Source of the DNA: Halomicrobium zhouii
GTDB taxonomy: Archaea > Halobacteriota > Halobacteria > Halobacteriales > Haloarculaceae
Direction of reading: 5' to 3'
Assembly: GCF_900114435.1 (NCBI RefSeq)
Contig: NZ_FOZK01000002.1
Coordinates: 1,054,001 to 1,118,000 of the forward strand
Length of the DNA: 64,000 nt
Shown: positions 4,427 to 59,550 of the stretch, one piece after another
How positions within the stretch are numbered: position 1 is the stretch's first letter
Layout: every line of letters begins with the position of its first letter
Position numbers and translations under genes: made by a program
The notes under the pieces: generated by a model
Database searches by the model: none
Seen by the model: the letters and a program-made list of their open reading frames with translations, nothing else
Told to the model about the DNA's origin: nothing

Positions 4427-4755
4427 CCGGACGGTTCGGCCCCGATCGGAGGCCCGGAGCCTCACGATCGGTGACGTCAGATTTTCCGTCGCGAATCGGG
4501 AGTTACCACGAGTCCAGCCGAACCGCGGGCCGGCGTCACGACCGGGAACGTACCAGATGCTACTTGAATGGGTACGGTAACGAGTCACAAACCCGGTCGT
4601 CGGCCCGTGTGCGTGGCCTTCGCACTACCGTACCAAAATCTTTAAATGCTTTTCGAACTCATTGTATTGGTACCAACCGGGCGCCCGGGTATATCGGCCG
4701 TCGTACGTCGGTATATTTTCAGGAACCTTCCTGCCCGGAGCGTCTGCCCCGTACA
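4427..4755 (+). promoter_or_regulatory. Long upstream region of the TFB gene with two TATA candidates and a palindrome
   Basis: The 329 nt between aglD and the TFB gene hold no convincing gene. An unusually AT-rich core for this genome runs from about 4630 to 4725. It contains a strong BRE/TATA-like ACCAAAATCTTTAAATGC around 4632-4649, a perfect 10-nt palindrome TTGGTACCAA at 4667-4676, and a second TATA candidate TATATTTT at 4712-4719. The second would give a leader of about 10-15 nt before the ATG at 4756; the first would give about 80 nt. Dual promoters or autoregulation are inference. Confidence 0.6.
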
Positions 4756-5721
4756 ATGAGCGACGAGAACACCAGAACGCGAACGAGAGAACGCACGGAC
4801 GAGACGGAGGAACAGCACACGTCGGCGGCCTGCCCGGAGTGTTCGGGCCACCTGATCGCCGACGAGGAACACGGCGAGACGGTGTGTGACGACTGCGGCC
4901 TGGTCGTCGACGAGGGCGAGATCGACCGCGGCCCCGAGTGGCGCGCCTTCGACTCCAGCGAGAAGGACAGCAAGTCGCGCGTCGGCGCGCCGACGACGAA
5001 CATGATGCACGACAAGGGCCTGTCGACCAACATCGACTGGCGCGACAAGGACGCCTACGGCAACTCCCTGGGCGCCAAGCAGCGCCAGAAGATGCAGCGC
5101 CTGCGCAAGTGGAACGAGCGGTTCCGGACCCGCGACTCCAAGGAGCGCAACCTCAAGCAGGCGCTGGGCGAGATCGACCGGATGGCCAGCGCACTCGGCC
5201 TGCCCGAGAACGTTCGCGAGACCGCGTCGGTCATCTATCGCCGTGCGCTCGACGAGAACCTCCTTCCCGGCCGGTCGATCGAGGGCGTCTCGACGGCCTC
5301 CGTCTACGCCGCCGCGCGCCAGGCCGGCGTCCCGCGCTCGCTCGACGAGATAACCGATGTCTCCCGCGTCGAGAAATCGGAGATCGCACGGACCTACCGC
5401 TACGTCGTCCGCGAACTCGGCCTGGAGGTCGCCCCGGCCGACCCCGAGAGCTACGTCCCGCGCTTCGCCTCTTCGCTCGACATGTCCGACGAGGCCGAAC
5501 ACCGCGCCCGCCAGCTGCTCCAGAACGCCAAGGAACAGGGCGTCCACTCCGGCAAGTCGCCCGTCGGTCTCGCCGCAGCGGCCGTCTACGCCGCCGCCTT
5601 GCTCACCAACGAGAAGACGACGCAGGCGGCCGTCAGCGAAGTCGCCGACATCTCGGAAGTGACCATCCGCAACCGGTACCACGAGCTCCTCGAGGCCGAA
5701 CAGGGGCTCCCTGCGGCCTGA
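4756..5721 (+). CDS. tfb: Transcription initiation factor TFB (archaeal TFIIB)
   Basis: A 321-aa protein with the full TFB layout. The N-terminal zinc ribbon uses C26, C29, C44 and C47. The B-finger/linker follows (EWRAFDSSEKDSKSRVGAP). Two cyclin-like repeats, about 125-220 and 225-315, contain the paired SVYAAARQAGVPRSLDEI and AAAVYAAALLTNEKTTQ segments that bind TBP and BRE DNA. TFB recruits RNA polymerase to the TBP-TATA complex. Haloarchaea carry several TFB paralogues with partly specialised promoters, so the number of this one cannot be given. The ATG at 4756 precedes the zinc ribbon by 25 residues. Confidence 0.96.
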   Translation: MSDENTRTRTRERTDETEEQHTSAACPECSGHLIADEEHGETVCDDCGLVVDEGEIDRGPEWRAFDSSEKDSKSRVGAPTTNMMHDKGLSTNIDWRDKDAYGNSLGAKQRQKMQRLRKWNERFRTRDSKERNLKQALGEIDRMASALGLPENVRETASVIYRRALDENLLPGRSIEGVSTASVYAAARQAGVPRSLDEITDVSRVEKSEIARTYRYVVRELGLEVAPADPESYVPRFASSLDMSDEAEHRARQLLQNAKEQGVHSGKSPVGLAAAAVYAAALLTNEKTTQAAVSEVADISEVTIRNRYHELLEAEQGLPAA

Positions 5722-7642: not shown

Positions 7643-8332
7643 ATGGACTTCGACTCGTTCGTTCTCTCGGCGGCGACGGGCGACATCTACGACGAGCCGG
7701 CCGCTCGCGCCCACGCCGACGTCCTGGAGTACAGAATGGATCTGGCGACGGATCCGATCGACAGACTCGCCGAGTACGACGGCGAGCTTCCGTTACTGGT
7801 GACCAACCGCGTGGAGTGGGAGGGCGGCGACGCCCCCGACACCGAGGCCCGGCTGGACGCCCTGGAGACCGCCACCGAACTCGACGCCGTCGAGGCTGTC
7901 GACGTCGAACTCGGGGCGCTCGTGGGCGAAGGAAAGTACAACGCCGACCGCGTCGTCGAGGCAGCCAGGGGACGCGACACCACCGTCATCGTCTCGGCCC
8001 ACGACTTCGAACGGACACCAGACCGCGAGAAGATCGAGGAGTGGCTCACCCGGGCCTGCAAACACGGCGACGTCGGGAAGGTGGCCACCACGGCGAACGA
8101 ACCCGCCGACGTCCTGGCCTTGCTCTCCGCCACTGAGGCCAAGACCAGCCGCGGCCACGCCGTCGCGACGATGGCGATGGGCGAGGCCGGCCGCCACTCC
8201 CGCGCCGTCGCGCCGCTGTACGGCTCCAAGATCGGCTACGCGCCCGTCCGCCCCGAGAACGCCACGGCGCCCGGCCAGTACGACCTGGAGACGCTCCGAG
8301 AACTGATCGACCAGCTCAAGAGCAGGGAATAA
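7643..8332 (+). CDS. aroD: Type I 3-dehydroquinate dehydratase
   Basis: A 229-aa TIM-barrel protein. It converts 3-dehydroquinate to 3-dehydroshikimate, the third step of the shikimate pathway, through a Schiff base. Seen: the EYRMDL strand near residue 29, the catalytic His in VSAHDF and the Schiff-base Lys in VGKVAT, followed by MAMGEAGRHSR and the C-terminal GSKIGYAP. Length is typical. A TATA-like TTGATAAATC lies about 27 nt before the ATG, fitting a leaderless mRNA. It is 2.8 kb from the DHQ synthase II gene that makes its substrate. Confidence 0.96.
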   Translation: MDFDSFVLSAATGDIYDEPAARAHADVLEYRMDLATDPIDRLAEYDGELPLLVTNRVEWEGGDAPDTEARLDALETATELDAVEAVDVELGALVGEGKYNADRVVEAARGRDTTVIVSAHDFERTPDREKIEEWLTRACKHGDVGKVATTANEPADVLALLSATEAKTSRGHAVATMAMGEAGRHSRAVAPLYGSKIGYAPVRPENATAPGQYDLETLRELIDQLKSRE

Positions 8333-8382
8333 TACGAGGTCGAGCGGTTGCTGGGCCGTTGCGGCGTTGGTTGGAACAGCAT

Positions 8383-8490
8383 CCGGCGGCGAAGCCGCCG
8401 GTTCACCGAACTCGCCGGAGGCGAGTTCGGCCTTTTTCATCGACGTTTTTGCGCAAGCGGTGCGCGGAGCGCACCCGCAGCGGAAAAAGG
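8383..8490. repeat. Palindromic intergenic element: three perfect hairpins with GNA triloops
   Basis: Downstream of aroD are three perfect stem-loops: 8383-8401 (8-bp stem, GAA loop), 8406-8430 (11-bp stem, GGA loop) and 8459-8475 (7-bp stem, GGA loop). The last is bracketed by CCTTTTTC (8431-8438) and GAAAAAGG (8483-8490), which are inverted copies of each other. The second hairpin followed by a T-run could end aroD transcription. It resembles palindromic repeats I know from haloarchaeal intergenic regions, but copy number cannot be judged from one window. Confidence 0.75.
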
Positions 8491-8537: not shown

Positions 8538-8948
8538 GTGGCTGAAACCAAGCGAAGGCGGCCCTGGCTGGCCGCTGCACTGGCGTTACTCTCTCCCGGT
8601 CTCGGACACGTCTATCTCCGCGAGTGGCTTCGGGCCGTCGTCTGGTTTGGACTGATGTTCGCGGCGACGGAACTTCTGGTACCCGTCCCCCCCATGCCGG
8701 CAGAGGTGACGGTGACGTCTGTCCTCGAAGCCTCGCAGATGGCGGCCGAACAGGTCGACGCTCCCAGCCGGCTCGCGCTCTTTGCGATAACCGCGCTCTC
8801 GATGGCCGACGCCTACTGGATCGCGACCCGGGGGAACCGGCAGGCGGCGACCGACGAGGGCGTCTCCTGTCCCCACTGCGGCCGCGAGGTCGACGAGGAC
8901 CTGGAGTTCTGTCACTGGTGTACGACGCGCCTCGAACCCCTTGAGTGA
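8538..8948 (+). CDS. Membrane protein with C-terminal zinc ribbon
   Basis: A 136-aa protein starting at GTG 8538. The N-terminus is basic (KRRRP), then two to three hydrophobic segments: LLSPGLGHVYLREW with following AVVWFGLMFAATELLV, and FAITALSMADAYWI. A C-terminal zinc ribbon, CPHCGREVDEDLEFCHWC, has two CxxC pairs. This layout (small membrane anchor, LSPGLGHxYL motif and cytosolic zinc ribbon) is frequent in haloarchaeal proteins of unknown function. The start is set by the conserved N-terminus and lack of an ATG. Confidence 0.78.
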   Translation: MAETKRRRPWLAAALALLSPGLGHVYLREWLRAVVWFGLMFAATELLVPVPPMPAEVTVTSVLEASQMAAEQVDAPSRLALFAITALSMADAYWIATRGNRQAATDEGVSCPHCGREVDEDLEFCHWCTTRLEPLE

Positions 8949-9186
8949 CCGACAGAGCGACGTCCCGACCGACGGCCTTCGACTGACTGTTCGCCTGTAG
9001 TCGACTGCTGACCTCTAATTATCGTTCAGGATATCACGCGACGGTGATCGTTCCCACTGTTCTCCACGGAAAATTCGCTCGCCGTCCGACGATCCAGCAT
9101 CGACCCACGACAGCCCGGTGCGGTCCGAGTATCGATCCTGAGTATGGGGCACAACGGCTATTTCGGTTCTCGGCAAAGAGCCAGGC

Positions 9187-10953
9187 GTGCTCCAGTTCCC
9201 AGTCGACGCTCCGGGATATCTTCTCCACCTCATCGGGCTGGTGGTGGCCGCCGGTGTCTCGATTGCGGTGGCACGCTGGGTCTCCAGACAGTCCGACGAG
9301 GGCGCCGCGCGGACGATGGTCCTGCTGCTCTGGATCCACGCGACGATGGCTGCGCTCGTCGCCGTCCAGCTGCTCGTCTCGTCGGCGGCCGTCGAGGAAC
9401 TGCTCGTGGGGACCTGGCACGGGCTGTTTCCCGCGAGTGCGCCCGTCTGGCTCGCCTTCGCGATATACTACACCGGTCGAGACCACTGGATGACGGCGCG
9501 GGTCCGGCTCGTTCTCTGGCTGGGCGGCGTCGTCCCGTTCGTCCTCTCGGTGACCGACCCGGCCCACGGACTGATGTTCACCGACTGGACGGTGCAGACC
9601 GAACCGTTCACGTTCCGCTACGCGGCAGTCACGCCGCTCAACGAATCCTTCCTGGTGCTGGCCACGCTGGGCATACTCACCGGATTCGCACTCCTCATCC
9701 GGTTGTCAGTGTTCTCTCGCCGGTCGTCGCGCTGGCAGTCGGCGGCCCTGCTGGCGGGCTTACCCGTCATCCTCCTGCTCGCCATGCTCGCGTACACGCC
9801 GCTCGCTCCGGTCCGGCACTTTCCGTACGGCATCTTCGGCTCGGGCATCTTCGGCGTCCTCGTCGCGGGATCACTCTACCGGACCCGTCTGTTCGCGGTC
9901 GCGCCGCTTGCCAGGGATTCCCTCTTCGACTCCGTCGACGACGCGGTGATCGTCGTGAACACGGACAGGCGCCTCGTCGACTACAACGTTCGCGCACTCG
10001 CCCTCTTTCCCTCGCTCGACGGCGCGATCGGGCGCCAGCTCGACGACGTCTGTCCGGTCCTGGTCGGGTCCACCGACTGGACGCCGGACGTCGGTGACCG
10101 GGGCGACACCGAAGACGCTTCGCCGTTCGTCGGTACCGTCCGTCGATCCGTCGACGGCGAGGCGCGCAGTTTCAACGTCACGACCTCCGAGATCTCCAGA
10201 GGCGGACGTCGGTACGGATACGGTCTCATCGTCAGCGACGTCACGACCCTGGTCGAGTACTCCACGGAACTCGAACGGAAGACCGAACGGCTCGAACAGT
10301 TCGCGTCCGTGCTCTCCCACGACCTCCGGAATCCGCTTTCCGTCGCGATGGGCCGGCTCGAACTCGAACGGGAGGACGGCGACAGCGAACACCTCCGAAA
10401 ATCGCGGGAGGCGCTGGACCGCATCGATACGACCATCGACGACCTGCTGAGGCTCGCCCGGAACGGCGACGCAGTGTCGGACCCGGCTCCCGTCTCGCTC
10501 CGGGGCGTCGCCGCCGACGCCTGGGAGACCTCGGACACCGGCGACGCGACCCTGTCGATCGAGGTCGGCGACCAGTATCGAGTGCTCGCCGACCGTTCTC
10601 GACTCAGAACCCTGCTGGAGAACCTCTTTCGCAACGCAGCCGACCACGGCGGCGACCACGTTACCGTCGGTCGCCTCAGTGCGGGGGCGGACGCCGACCC
10701 GCGATCGGGCTTCTTCGTCGCGGACGACGGCCCCGGCATCCCGGAAGACGATCGCGATGCCGTCTTCGAGTACGGGTACTCCACGGTCGACGAGGGCACC
10801 GGATTCGGGCTCGCCATCGTCCAGTCCATCGCCGACGCCCACGACTGGTCGCTCGCTATCACCGAGAGCAGTGAGAGCGGCGCCAGGTTCGAGGTGACCG
10901 GCGTCACGACGTCAGAAGCTGTCGCCGGTTCGTCGACCGAACCCACCGTCTGA
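9187..10953 (+). CDS. Sensor histidine kinase with 7TM N-terminal domain and PAS domain
   Basis: A 588-aa protein starting at GTG 9187; a TATA-like GCTATTTCG lies about 27 nt upstream, fitting a leaderless mRNA. Residues 1-235 form about seven membrane helices of the histidine-kinase N-terminal 7TM type. Residues 240-355 look like a PAS domain (DSVDDAVIVVNTDRRLVDYN). The phosphoacceptor His is residue 378 in LSHDLRNPLS. The ATPase domain shows an N-box NLFRNAADHG, G1 DDGPGIPED and G2 GTGFGLAIV. No receiver gene is adjacent, so the partner and signal are unknown. Confidence 0.9.
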   Translation: MLQFPVDAPGYLLHLIGLVVAAGVSIAVARWVSRQSDEGAARTMVLLLWIHATMAALVAVQLLVSSAAVEELLVGTWHGLFPASAPVWLAFAIYYTGRDHWMTARVRLVLWLGGVVPFVLSVTDPAHGLMFTDWTVQTEPFTFRYAAVTPLNESFLVLATLGILTGFALLIRLSVFSRRSSRWQSAALLAGLPVILLLAMLAYTPLAPVRHFPYGIFGSGIFGVLVAGSLYRTRLFAVAPLARDSLFDSVDDAVIVVNTDRRLVDYNVRALALFPSLDGAIGRQLDDVCPVLVGSTDWTPDVGDRGDTEDASPFVGTVRRSVDGEARSFNVTTSEISRGGRRYGYGLIVSDVTTLVEYSTELERKTERLEQFASVLSHDLRNPLSVAMGRLELEREDGDSEHLRKSREALDRIDTTIDDLLRLARNGDAVSDPAPVSLRGVAADAWETSDTGDATLSIEVGDQYRVLADRSRLRTLLENLFRNAADHGGDHVTVGRLSAGADADPRSGFFVADDGPGIPEDDRDAVFEYGYSTVDEGTGFGLAIVQSIADAHDWSLAITESSESGARFEVTGVTTSEAVAGSSTEPTV

Positions 10954-56433: not shown

Positions 56434-56540
56434 GGACATACAGCGCGACTGATAGACCTTAAACCTCCGTCAGACATTGACAGCGCGATTGACAACTCCC
56501 CGACCAGTCGCCCCCGGTGTGTCCGGTCGCTATCTGGCGA

Positions 56541-57296
56541 TCATGCGCCGTAGGTCTCGTCCAGATACGCCGACACGCGGTCGACGACGGCGGGGTCGAA
56601 CGTCCAGAGGCCGGTCCACTCGTTCGGTCCGACCTCCGTCGCGAGCAGGGCGCCCTTGAACTCGTCGGGGCAGTCGGTGTTGACGACGAACCACGAGGTA
56701 CGGATCTCCTCGCTATCGTCCGCGTGGACGGAGATGTCGTCGGGAATAGCCGGTGAGTCGTCCGGCGTCCCGTACACGTGGACAGAGACGTCGGCGTCGA
56801 CGAGCCGCTCGTACACCGATCTCGTCCCGCGTTCGTCCTCGATGCGAGAGAGGTGCTGAAAGCCGGTGTGTAACGTGCTCCCGCCGGACCGGTAGGCCAG
56901 GGCCTCGACGTGGCGCGAGATCTCGATCAGCAGCATCTTCTGCTTGCCCGAAACCGTGAACGTCGTCTCGTCCAGCCCCGCGAGCACGTCTGGCGTGTCG
57001 ACCTCGTCGATCGATCTGGTGCCGGTGATATAGAGGTCCGAGTTCACCATCAGGACGCTGTTTCCCACGTCGGCGATCGAAGAGATGGCGAGTTGCGTCG
57101 TCCCCTCCCCGTCTCCTTCGAGAATGACGAGGTTTCCGGGGCTTCCCGCTGCGGGCACGTCCTCCCGGATCCGCACGTCCGGCGCGTCGACCATCCGCCT
57201 GAGCATCCGCACGATCGGCTCCGGTTCGTCGCGGTTCCGTATCGTGAGCGTCTTCTCACCGGAGTCGACGTCCGCGATGATGTCGGCGAGTCCCAT
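56541..57296 (-). CDS. DICT sensory-domain protein
   Basis: A 251-aa protein. The DICT-type pattern is visible: SGKQKMLLIEISRHVEALAYRSGGSTLHTGFQHLSRIEDERGTRSVYERLVDADVSVHVYGTP, then TSWFVVNTDCPDEFKGALLATEVGPNEWTGLWTFDPAVVDRV. DICT domains occur next to GGDEF, EAL and histidine-kinase modules in bacteria and alone in haloarchaea, and are thought to sense light or a ligand. The N-terminal about 80 residues hold a separate alpha/beta unit (EPIVRMLRRMVDAPDVRIREDVP). No output domain is present. Confidence 0.85.
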   Translation of the reverse strand: MGLADIIADVDSGEKTLTIRNRDEPEPIVRMLRRMVDAPDVRIREDVPAAGSPGNLVILEGDGEGTTQLAISSIADVGNSVLMVNSDLYITGTRSIDEVDTPDVLAGLDETTFTVSGKQKMLLIEISRHVEALAYRSGGSTLHTGFQHLSRIEDERGTRSVYERLVDADVSVHVYGTPDDSPAIPDDISVHADDSEEIRTSWFVVNTDCPDEFKGALLATEVGPNEWTGLWTFDPAVVDRVSAYLDETYGA

Positions 57297-57368
57297 TGCG
57301 TACTCGTTCGGGTGGAGTGCTAAATACGACGCGGGGCGATTACCATCGCTGATAGCGATGCGCGAGGG

Positions 57369-58538
57369 CTACGCGTCCGTCCACGGAAACAGCGGCTCGT
57401 CGCACCGCTCCCGAACGGCGTCGCTCGTCAGCGTCGATCCGTCCGTTCCGTAGACCATGGCGGGATGGTCCTGCGGCGTCAGCCCGGGGACGTCGGCGTC
57501 CCAGTTCGCCTCGTAGGCCAGCGACGAGTGCGGCGAGAACGGTTCCGTCCCGATCGGCAGGTACGCCTGTGTCGCCCACGGGACGAACCGCTCCCGGTTC
57601 ATCTCCTGGTTCCGGAGCCAGTTGCCGTCCTCGACGCTCCCGTCGAGACGCTCGTCGGTCCCTCGCTCCAGTCCGTTCGTCATCCCGCCTTCGGGCTGGG
57701 TCCCGTTCACGTAGAAGACGTGGAGCGGGTACGGGCTGGCGTCCCACGTGCGGGCAAGGGTCGTGCCGTCGGCCAGCACGATCAGGTCCAGGAACGTGTA
57801 CACCGTCGGCGGCGTCCGGATGTACGAGGGGACGTCCTCCGGGCCGTTGTCCGGGAACTCCGCCTGGAACCGGACCGGGTCCCGGTAGAACAGTTCGTTC
57901 AGCTTCCGGATGTAGGTGTCCTGCCCGCCGACGATGGCAGAGACGCGGACACCTTCGACCGTCTCGCCGTCAGGCCCGTCCACTGCGACGCGATTCAGAT
58001 CCTCGGACCTCGGTTCGTAGCCCGCACTGTCTCCGTCGCCGCCCCCTCGCTCGACGATATCGTCGTCGTAGCGAATGCGGTGTGCCCTCGCCTTCTCGCG
58101 CCCGTCGAACCAGTCCCAGAACTCGCTCGGCGGGTCCTCGATCAGGGTCCGCATCGCGTTGTCCTCGCCGTGGTCGGTCTCCCCCTCGACGCAGACCCAG
58201 ACGGGGTCGTGCTCGTCGATTGCCACCGTCACCGCGTCCCAGTCGTCGATGCGCCGGCCGCCGCTCGACGGAAAGGTAACTTCGAGGTGGTTCTTCAGCC
58301 GGTAGGCACGGAACTCCTCGCCGGGGTACTCGGGGAACGTCTTCCTGGCCGCCAGCGCGTCGTCGAGGGCCGTCGGCAGGGACTCCCGCTGGTCCCCGAG
58401 GAACCACGCGTCGAGGCCCTTCCCCCAGTAATCCGGCATCGCGCTGTCGAGGTCGTCGCCGCCCGCGGCGCTGTGTTCGCTGCCGCCGGGGATCAGCGAG
58501 AGCGTCGTCGCCGACCCGGTCACCGTCTCGTCACTCAC
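57369..58538 (-). CDS. Unrecognised 389-aa protein, partner of the Tat-secreted gene
   Basis: I do not recognise a family. The start is GTG 58538, which overlaps the upstream TGA (GTGA) and has GGAGGTGA 6 nt before it. The protein is Trp-, Asp- and Pro-rich with no signal peptide or membrane helix. Stretches that look ordered are DYWGKGLDAWFLGDQ, AVTVAIDEHDPVWVCVEGE, FWDWFDGREKARAHRIRYDDD, TPPTVYTFLDLIVLADGTTLARTW and LHVFYVNGTQPEGG. The many aromatic and beta-prone segments suggest a beta-rich fold. It may be exported with its partner, or stay inside; neither is shown. Confidence 0.68.
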   Translation of the reverse strand: MSDETVTGSATTLSLIPGGSEHSAAGGDDLDSAMPDYWGKGLDAWFLGDQRESLPTALDDALAARKTFPEYPGEEFRAYRLKNHLEVTFPSSGGRRIDDWDAVTVAIDEHDPVWVCVEGETDHGEDNAMRTLIEDPPSEFWDWFDGREKARAHRIRYDDDIVERGGGDGDSAGYEPRSEDLNRVAVDGPDGETVEGVRVSAIVGGQDTYIRKLNELFYRDPVRFQAEFPDNGPEDVPSYIRTPPTVYTFLDLIVLADGTTLARTWDASPYPLHVFYVNGTQPEGGMTNGLERGTDERLDGSVEDGNWLRNQEMNRERFVPWATQAYLPIGTEPFSPHSSLAYEANWDADVPGLTPQDHPAMVYGTDGSTLTSDAVRERCDEPLFPWTDA

Positions 58539-59419
58539 AGCCACTCACCTCCGAACAGGTACTCGACGCCGTCCAGCACGAACTCCACCCCGTCGTCGGT
58601 CAGCGTCTCGACGGTGTAGGGCACCGAGGACCCGCTGGCGAAGACGAACTCGCCGGATTCCAGGTGTTCCGTCCGGAGGTGGACCTCCGTCGAGCGGTAG
58701 GCCCCGAGGGCGAACTGGAGGCGTTCGAAGTGCTCGCCCAGTCGCAGGCGCCTGATCCGGTCGCCGTCGTCCGTCAGGTGGACGTCGTCGACGACAACTG
58801 TCCACGCCTCGCCGGCGTCGCTGTCCAGCGAGTCCGACGCGGAGTCCGTGGCCGGCGACCAGTCGATCTCCAGTTTCGTCGCGTCGGCTCGCGTCGTCTC
58901 GGCCAGCTCGCGCAGGTCCCACGAGACGACTGCGGGCGCGTGCGGCCGGACGGTCTGTGCGTCCGATTCGACGACGCCAGTGTCGTCGCCGAAGAGCCCA
59001 TCGTCTACGTAGTGCAATCGAAACCGCACCGAGATAGCCACGTCGCTCCCCGGGATCCGGCCGGGCGTGACCGTCGCGAACAGGGAGGGGTTCGCGACGA
59101 GGTCGGCGTTTCGGACGCGTTCCTCGTTCTCGATGCGTCCGGCAGTTCGGTCCGTCGTCGCCGCCAGCGCGTGGTCGCCGCTCGTGACGGCAGCCGGTCG
59201 CTCAGACTTCGCGACCCGGTCGAGCGTCGTCTCACCGACGCCGCGCCAGCCGGCCAGGCCCGACTCGAAGTCGCCCAGAGTGACGGCATCGTCGCTCGTC
59301 TCAGCCGCCCCGCTCGCGGGCACCGCACCGCCGGCGAGCGCCGCGGCAGTCGTGGCCCCTATCCCCTTCAGCACGTTTCGACGCGTCGCTGACCCAGTCG
59401 ACCCCCATGTACCTTCCAT
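58535..59419 (-). CDS. Tat-secreted beta-sandwich-like protein
   Basis: A 294-aa protein from ATG 59419. A twin-arginine signal (ATRRNVLKGIGATTAAALAGGAVPASG) is followed by a jelly-roll-like domain: TLGDFESGLAGWRGVGE is the typical start of a carbohydrate-binding-type module, then alternating strands (AISVRFRLHYVDDG, VVSWDLRELAETT, AWTVVVDDVHLTDD). The final 60 residues repeat a strand-rich pattern (VEFVLDGVEYLFGGEWL). It is expected outside the cell, binding sugar or surface polymer. Its stop overlaps the start of the next gene by 4 nt. Confidence 0.75.
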   Translation of the reverse strand: MEGTWGSTGSATRRNVLKGIGATTAAALAGGAVPASGAAETSDDAVTLGDFESGLAGWRGVGETTLDRVAKSERPAAVTSGDHALAATTDRTAGRIENEERVRNADLVANPSLFATVTPGRIPGSDVAISVRFRLHYVDDGLFGDDTGVVESDAQTVRPHAPAVVSWDLRELAETTRADATKLEIDWSPATDSASDSLDSDAGEAWTVVVDDVHLTDDGDRIRRLRLGEHFERLQFALGAYRSTEVHLRTEHLESGEFVFASGSSVPYTVETLTDDGVEFVLDGVEYLFGGEWL

Positions 59420-59550
59420 TTTCAGGTCCGAAAGACCTCGGCCACCACTCAAAACGTTACCCCCTAATCGCTTAGCCCGGGGAATGCACGTCGACGAGCG
59501 GAACGAACCCCTTCGTTAGCCTTTAGCCGAACGGCGTCGAATCCCGGACA

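Follow-up and report, generated by a model that had tools for sequence, protein, structure and literature searches.

A conserved haloarchaeal gene pair, a Tat-signal exoprotein and a signal-less partner, as candidate subunits of one co-exported complex

The subject of this work is a pair of overlapping genes in a 64,000-nucleotide stretch of the Halomicrobium zhouii genome (NCBI RefSeq assembly GCF_900114435.1, contig NZ_FOZK01000002.1, positions 1,054,001 to 1,118,000), hereafter called the window. The first gene encodes P1, an exoprotein with a twin-arginine translocation (Tat) signal, and the second encodes P2, a larger partner without a signal. Sequence comparison across haloarchaea indicates that P1 and P2 are a real and conserved pair, one for which we found no description in the open-access literature. 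The best reading of the evidence, to which we assign a probability of about 0.6 on the strength of the sequences and of analogy with bacterial systems, is that the two proteins are subunits of a single extracellular complex, with P2 leaving the cell as a hitchhiker on the Tat signal of P1. We infer that the two proteins bind each other, are exported jointly, hold a glycan and owe their activity to P2. Coordinates of the features discussed are given in Table 1.

Tat hitchhiker export of a partner that has no signal of its own is established in bacteria, where it serves Ni-Fe hydrogenases and formate dehydrogenases, as described in the portion of PMC10924467 consulted. Such partners occur together and carry a Tat signal on exactly one of the two, and the P1-P2 pair shows both features. 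The window's P1 scores 18.5 bits against the NCBIfam model TAT_signal_seq (cut-off 16.7), and a twin-arginine motif is present in 32/32 P1 genes adjoining P2, although in four of these (L062, L069, L071, and L074) it is read in a neighbouring frame; the P1 gene of L060 is frameshifted further down. No hydrophobic N-terminal signal was found in the first 60 residues of any of 31 P2 sequences. The best 17-residue mean hydrophobicity of P2 is at most 0.66 in 30 of these 31 and 1.02 in L052, compared with 1.18-1.95 in 27 of 31 P1 frames, the other four being frames in which the scanned stretch missed the signal. The first-pass annotation of this DNA had called the first gene exported and the second devoid of both a signal and a known family, and both calls held up; a search of P2 against Pfam and NCBIfam returned nothing up to E = 1.

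The same annotation had described a two-gene unit and expected equal co-production of its proteins from a GTGA overlap and a strong Shine-Dalgarno sequence within the end of the first gene; the evidence supports such a unit, with tight translational coupling. The coordinates of the open reading frames (ORFs), read on the minus strand of the window, confirm that the end of P1 and the start of P2 share GTGA, and the complete 8-nt motif GGAGGTGA, which we take to be the complement of the haloarchaeal anti-Shine-Dalgarno sequence, sits inside the 3' end of P1. An alternative GTG start two codons upstream would lengthen P2 to 391 residues. Across the window and 29 further loci, with starts picked by the analyst where several were possible and with L050 and L060 left out of the start-codon count, the start of P2, counted from the first base of the stop codon of P1, is at -1 in 11/30 and at +2 in 16/30, and at +4, +5 or +20 in the remaining three. 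A Shine-Dalgarno match of at least 5 nt lies no more than 20 nt from the P2 start in 19 of the 29 loci other than the window, compared with 712 of 9000 random 20-mers drawn from within P1 genes (7.9%); among the rest, the match is 4 nt long in nine loci and absent in L073. Many P1 homologues end in GGEW or GGGW, and since the Shine-Dalgarno stretch encodes these last residues, their conservation may partly reflect the RNA rather than the protein. These data also bear on whether the true P2 start lies upstream, or a signal was missed, with P2 being exported by itself. Some P2 frames do extend, without a stop, far beyond the overlap, but these upstream open frames overlap the P1 coding sequence, the starts of 27/30 loci fall at position -1 or +2 from the stop of P1, and the Shine-Dalgarno matches support them in 19/29; as such, we regard independent export of P2 as very improbable.

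The pairing of the two genes is kept among relatives. We inspected 33 P2 loci (the window and L047-L078); at 32 of them P1 is the gene immediately upstream of P2, in the same orientation. The exception, L077, has a truncated P2, and a P1 remnant is found on another contig of its genome (L155). Among the 40 largest flanking-frame clusters listed, the only other genes with a constant place beside the pair are lipoproteins confined to two P2 clades, which are discussed below. Remnants and interrupted copies (L152, L153, L154, and L155) were kept outside the 33 loci. In L153 (positions 4648-5232, genome G197) an internal deletion has joined the beginning of P1, in frame, with the last part of P2, leaving a remnant of the pair. 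The P2 gene of L152 is broken up, and transposase genes separate and flank its pieces.

Co-occurrence across haloarchaea, proposed earlier as a check on the pair, was then assessed with profiles of both proteins. Searching with the single P2 sequence found relatives in 6/97 related genomes and in 29/392 genomes of the order, while a profile built from 30 homologues raised the latter to 31/392, spread over 15/95 genera and six family groups. The P1 profile matched 58/392 genomes, 26 of these 58 at about 25 bits or less and mostly at the signal-peptide end; at a score of at least 77 bits, P1 is present in 30/392. Below that score, G043 has the P1 C-terminal domain alone (50 bits) and G254 a 38-bit P1 fragment. 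P1 is present in 30/31 of the genomes with P2, and P2 in 29/30 of the genomes with a strong P1; the outcome that the first-pass annotation had named as refuting the pair, the two genes lying apart in most genomes, was thus not observed. In G395, remnants of P1 and P2 lie on different contigs. Named carriers, from a search that reaches close relatives only, include Haloterrigena salina, Halorussus salinisoli, Haloarcula amylovorans, Natronoglomus mannanivorans, Halovivax sp., and Natrinema zhouii. P2 is also found in nine haloarchaeal plasmid records, eight of which cover >80% of its length. Among 294 genomes sampled from the phylum, P2 was found in the window's own genome only; because many P2-bearing species fall outside that sample, this argues for rarity rather than absence beyond the order. 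As far as sampled, then, the distribution of the pair appears patchy and confined to the order.

P1 consists of two parts beyond its signal. Its AlphaFold2 (AF2) model has a mean predicted local distance difference test score (pLDDT) of 81.7 and a predicted template modelling score (pTM) of 0.77. The best match among solved structures is the carbohydrate-binding module (CBM) of a Bacillus mannanase, PDB entry 1wky (Z 17.3, root-mean-square deviation (rmsd) 2.3, 140 residues aligned), and the CBM22 domains of xylanases (4xup and 1h6x) follow at Z of about 16 (16.2). Overall, residues 45-216 and their surroundings match CBM22 and CBM27 structures at Z 16-17 with an rmsd of 2.3-3.3 and 12-18% identity. 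The predicted model thus has the galactose-binding-like fold of these families, while the curated sequence cut-off is not reached: the Pfam hit to Mann_GBD_bact (PF21253, E 5.5e-4) scores 20.6 bits vs a cut-off of 27. The first-pass annotation had proposed that the first protein is carbohydrate-binding. The CBM type of fold speaks for that proposal, as far as a predicted model can. Sugar binding is likely rather than proved, since the fold matches of P1 extend to meprins and a halovirus turret protein. The second part, a C-terminal domain of 75 residues, is present in 31/31 P1 homologues scanned, including that of L052, in which no CBM was found. We propose this domain as the likely dock for P2.

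The family of P2 is harder to place. Its AF2 model has a pLDDT of 82.9 and a pTM of 0.87, and its single convincing match among solved structures is chain B of PDB entry 3c5p, BAS0735 (Z 12.0, rmsd 3.1, 182/193 residues, 17% identity), the next row falling to Z 5.0. Foldseek gives E 1.5e-3 for the same comparison, short of 0.001. The predicted model of P2 thus has the overall fold of BAS0735, with no detectable sequence homology: profile searches with P2 did not reach 3c5p even at E 10 and retrieved nothing credible among PDB sequences, the clade B profile returning mainly WD40 coatomer rows at E of at least 0.09 over the stretch that holds the WDxS motif. A literature search for 3c5p and BAS0735 found no paper on the protein under either name, the hits to '3c5p' being unrelated judging by their titles. 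Residues invariant in the 30 P2 sequences aligned include E21, D43, D49, R80, D257, R263, D266, S268, Y276, and Y342, a set whose conservation fits an active or metal site. L050 was left out of the alignment behind the invariant residues, the AF2 model and the comparison of P2 halves given below. A conserved cysteine nucleophile is ruled out, since 16/31 P2 sequences have no cysteine at all. An Ntn-hydrolase reading was considered on account of Taspase1 and asparaginase rows (Z 2.5-5.0) and was not used as evidence, because these values fall in the range of common arrangements; fold families missing from the match lists were not counted as excluded.

Some P2 proteins carry additional regions. 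Those of L076 and L078 have a common N-terminal extension (residues about 30-250), which in L076 gives a weak hint of the biotin-ligase-N family (PF09825, E 0.0013, below the cut-off), and that of L069 contains Kelch repeats, a type of repeat not tied to any one compartment. A separate observation concerns jelly-roll domains, which are present in the exported P1 of four of the six clade B rows (L051, L071, L073, and L074); Pfam matches those of L051 and L073 as LamG_3 or SO2946-like. When used as a model, the P1 jelly-rolls also pick out two P2 proteins that lack a signal, those of L050 (two copies, 131 bits) and of L049 (29 bits). The presence of one jelly-roll family on either subunit suggests that P1 and P2 work in one place, outside the cell.

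This point matters for the alternative in which P2 never leaves the cytosol and serves P1 there, be it as its own chaperone, as an export gatekeeper or as a factor for self-protection. Chaperones devoted to a single Tat substrate are common, none of the 31 P2 proteins has a signal, and the strict coupling of the two genes would also fit a chaperone. Nevertheless, P2 is both larger and more conserved than P1: between the window and G006, identity is 93% for P2 and 90% for P1, and the ratio of nonsynonymous to synonymous substitution rates (dN/dS) is 0.17 for P2 and 0.31 for P1 (0.35 and 0.65, respectively, between the window and G004), so that both genes are under purifying selection. Furthermore, two P2 proteins carry jelly-roll domains of the family found in exported P1, and the sole convincing fold match, 3c5p, has no known chaperone role. 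We therefore consider a cytosolic P2 unlikely.

According to the co-export reading that we prefer, and that the first-pass annotation had thought conceivable as Tat export of a folded pair, translational coupling would lead to P1 and P2 being made together, P2 would fold in the cytoplasm and bind the small C-terminal domain of P1, and the twin-arginine signal of P1 would carry both through the Tat translocase. Once outside, the CBM-like domain of P1 would anchor the complex on a glycan, whether of the cell surface, a matrix or a polysaccharide, and P2 would carry the activity of the exported complex.

Several observations weigh against joint export or at least fail to favour it. The hitchhiker partners named in the portion of PMC10924467 consulted are cofactor enzymes, and there is no sign of a cofactor in P1-P2. 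Constraint on the proposed dock does not exceed that on the CBM, with a window-G006 dN/dS of 0.47 for the C-terminal domain vs 0.29 for the CBM. In favour of the complex, P2 distances do track the distances of the C-terminal domain of P1 (r 0.872, 31 labels, 0/500 permutations as high), but the correlation with the CBM is equally high (r 0.886, 30 labels, 0/500 permutations as high), and we take it as co-inheritance, not contact. The jelly-roll model was scored against only 31 sequences with its L071 and L074 segments taken from frameshifted genes, its hit in L049 is of modest strength, and no P1 domain convincingly matched the extensions of L067, L069, L076, and L078. Finally, the co-occurrence has one exception in each direction: G294, which has a P2 fragment and no P1, and G029, which has a strong P1 and no P2.

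If the pair is co-exported, one special case is that P2 is a secreted polysaccharide-active enzyme with P1 as its CBM subunit, i.e., a glycoside hydrolase or lyase split over two chains. In its favor are the best matches of P1, which are CBMs of mannanases and xylanases, the invariant acidic and basic residues of P2 (E21, D43, D49, R80, D257, R263, and D266), and a Halopiger plasmid stretch that includes arabinofuranosidase and sulfatase genes. However, such carbohydrate genes are not common to the neighbourhoods, and P2 shows no convincing carbohydrate-active fold, as its beta-galactosidase, GH97 and lyase rows reach only Z 2.3-2.9. We hold this version tentatively, as a doubtful candidate. 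The data neither favour nor contradict the other suggestion of the first-pass annotation, an enzyme with its surface receptor.

A second special case arises from the lipoprotein genes found beside P2 in some relatives. A maximum-likelihood tree of the P2 core regions (31 rows, with L060 and L077 left out) resolved clade A with 18 rows including the window (support 98/97), clade B with six (100/100), and clade C with five (100/99), while L052 and L067 are long rows that are weakly placed. One genome, G216, has three paralogous pairs (L067, L068, and L069), one belonging to clade B, one to clade C and one to a weakly placed long branch. In five of the six clade B rows, one to four diverged lipoproteins follow directly downstream of P2. 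These small lipoproteins, which we call P3, are about 170 residues long with a lipobox and two later conserved cysteines, and none of the five scanned reached a Pfam cut-off. At two loci, L073 (oriented positions 8250-8459 and 8935-9414) and L074 (8960-9292), small lipoproteins alternate with pieces of the P2 C-terminus; L073 and L074 belong to different families, and the pieces may be toxin/immunity-like arrays or decayed tandem duplications. In clade C, a PQQ-type beta-propeller lipoprotein adjoins P2 in all five rows, convergently in L075, and the truncated L077, which is outside the tree, has one as well. Such propeller genes also lie at or near some pairs from outside clade C. Neither lipoprotein family is present at any of the 18 clade A loci; other immunity genes were not systematically searched. 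Strong P3-like matches also occur away from P2 loci, and 53/313 genomes have matches overall, many of them weak, so P3 as a strict partner of P2 was rejected.

On this basis, P1-P2 could be a secreted conflict module, a binary effector acting on the surfaces of neighbours, an idea that we rate as improbable. The lipoproteins beside P2 in clades B and C would then be immunity proteins, and clade A would aim at targets that the cell does not itself carry or would have its protection encoded elsewhere. The position of the lipoproteins behind P2 in 5/6 clade B rows, the alternating P2 pieces of L073 and L074, the beta-propeller lipoprotein beside P2 in 5/5 clade C rows (one of them convergent), the patchy distribution, the plasmid copies and the presence of up to three paralogues per genome would all be in keeping with it. 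Against it are the absence of both lipoprotein families from the window's clade (0/18 rows), the P3-like lipoproteins far from P2, the silence of PADLOC and PHROGs for P2, and the lack of a toxin fold among the P2 matches seen. P2 also has no hypervariable C-terminus, its N- and C-terminal halves being equally conserved (0.64/0.65 in clade A, 0.48/0.50 in clade B, and 0.31/0.32 in four of five clade C rows). Given the missing variable C-terminus and the missing lipoprotein partner in the window's clade, we keep the conflict reading as a bold alternative. In its most extended form, the pair would be a self/non-self surface system, a Tat-co-exported binary effector with P1 as the targeting and P2 as the active subunit, for which the clades separately recruited lipoproteins as immunity proteins or receptors; we see this, too, as a long shot.

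Two further readings of P2 were considered and set aside. A virus origin found no support, as neither the single P2 protein nor the alignment retrieved a relative from IMG/VR in pattern-based scans, phage records gave no match at E 1e-5, and there was no PHROGs match and no viral fold match at E 0.001. PADLOC was silent for P2 as a defence system.

The local setting of the window's pair differs from that of the carriers compared outside its genus in the presence of a DICT-domain gene. In the window, the pair and the DICT gene lie between gatB and DUF7518/SMC (slot 56440-59550). The gatB-DUF7518 spacing is about 170 bp in G001, about 250 bp in G005, and 1.1-1.2 kb in G002 and G003, and no DICT protein was matched beside gatB in the stretches fetched from these four genomes. 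Among the loci compared, DICT stands beside the pair only in G000, G004, and G006, all of the window's genus, and DICT as a general third gene was rejected because, among clustered loci, it is confined to that genus. As the slot holds other DNA or almost none in four congeners, the pair and DICT were probably inserted as a block into a variable slot in the G000/G004/G006 lineage.

Table 1. Features of the P1-P2 pair, its neighbour in the window and lipoprotein genes at related loci (window coordinates, or loci where no coordinates are given)
Feature	Position or loci	Strand	Basis
P1, Tat-signal exoprotein, 294 aa	58538..59419	minus	ORF; ATG at 59419; stop TGA 58537-58535
Signal peptide of P1 (twin-arginine type, lipobox cysteine absent)	59303..59419 (end approximate)	minus	NCBIfam TAT_signal_seq
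P1 CBM22/27-like beta-sandwich	58766..59290	minus	hidden Markov model span; AF2 model; PDB match 1wky
C-terminal domain of P1 with a helix and strands (proposed P2 dock)	58541..58762	minus	conservation; AF2 secondary structure
Shine-Dalgarno GGAGGTGA for P2	about 58545..58552	minus	complete motif, 6 nt before P2 GTG
P2, 389-aa signal-less partner	57369..58538	minus	ORF; GTG start 58538, codon end 57372, stop TAG 57371-57369
DICT-domain gene, next to the pair	56541..57296	minus	PF10069 E 8.3e-9
Small lipoproteins downstream of P2 or its remnant	L051, L068, L072, L073, L074, L153		
Beta-propeller lipoprotein by P1-P2 loci	L050, L069, L076, L077, L078, L153	same strand	
Beta-propeller lipoprotein by P1-P2 loci	L075, L151, L155	convergent	

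If the co-export reading is true, P1 and P2 would be an archaeal Tat hitchhiker pair unlike the redox enzymes, a gene partner would be able to place a signal-less protein outside the cell, and signal-peptide surveys of haloarchaeal secretomes would overlook some exported proteins. In the open-access literature searched, as far as it was consulted, no such pair of co-translocated partners is described for haloarchaea, Haloferax or archaea. A function for P2 would inform its unnamed family and its structural relative 3c5p alike.

Compared with known systems, the pair combines several likenesses without coinciding with any one of them. Superposition of the predicted P1 beta-sandwich on CBM22 and CBM27 domains (1wky, 4xup, and 1h6x) makes it resemble these modules, but the P1 chain has no catalytic domain, unlike CBM-bearing enzymes, and its identity to them is 12-18%. 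P2 shares its predicted fold with BAS0735 (3c5p) over 182/193 residues, whereas BAS0735 is half as long, bacterial and without a profile-level sequence match. The clade B arrangement, a secreted protein with small lipoproteins and incomplete copies of a C-terminus behind it, recalls polymorphic toxin systems and the VARTIG modules of archaea, as described in PMC3482391 and PMC8416519 (in the parts consulted); unlike polymorphic toxins, P2 lacks a variable C-terminus in all three clades and a known toxin domain, and clade A lacks either lipoprotein family. The closest parallel is with Tat hitchhiker pairs, which, in the account of PMC10924467 as far as consulted, likewise have a twin-arginine signal on one partner only, the other being expected to cross the membrane within a folded complex. 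P1 and P2 would differ from the known hitchhiker pairs in being archaeal, in not being recognisable redox enzymes, in having a partner from an unnamed family, and in that their co-export is deduced from the genes.

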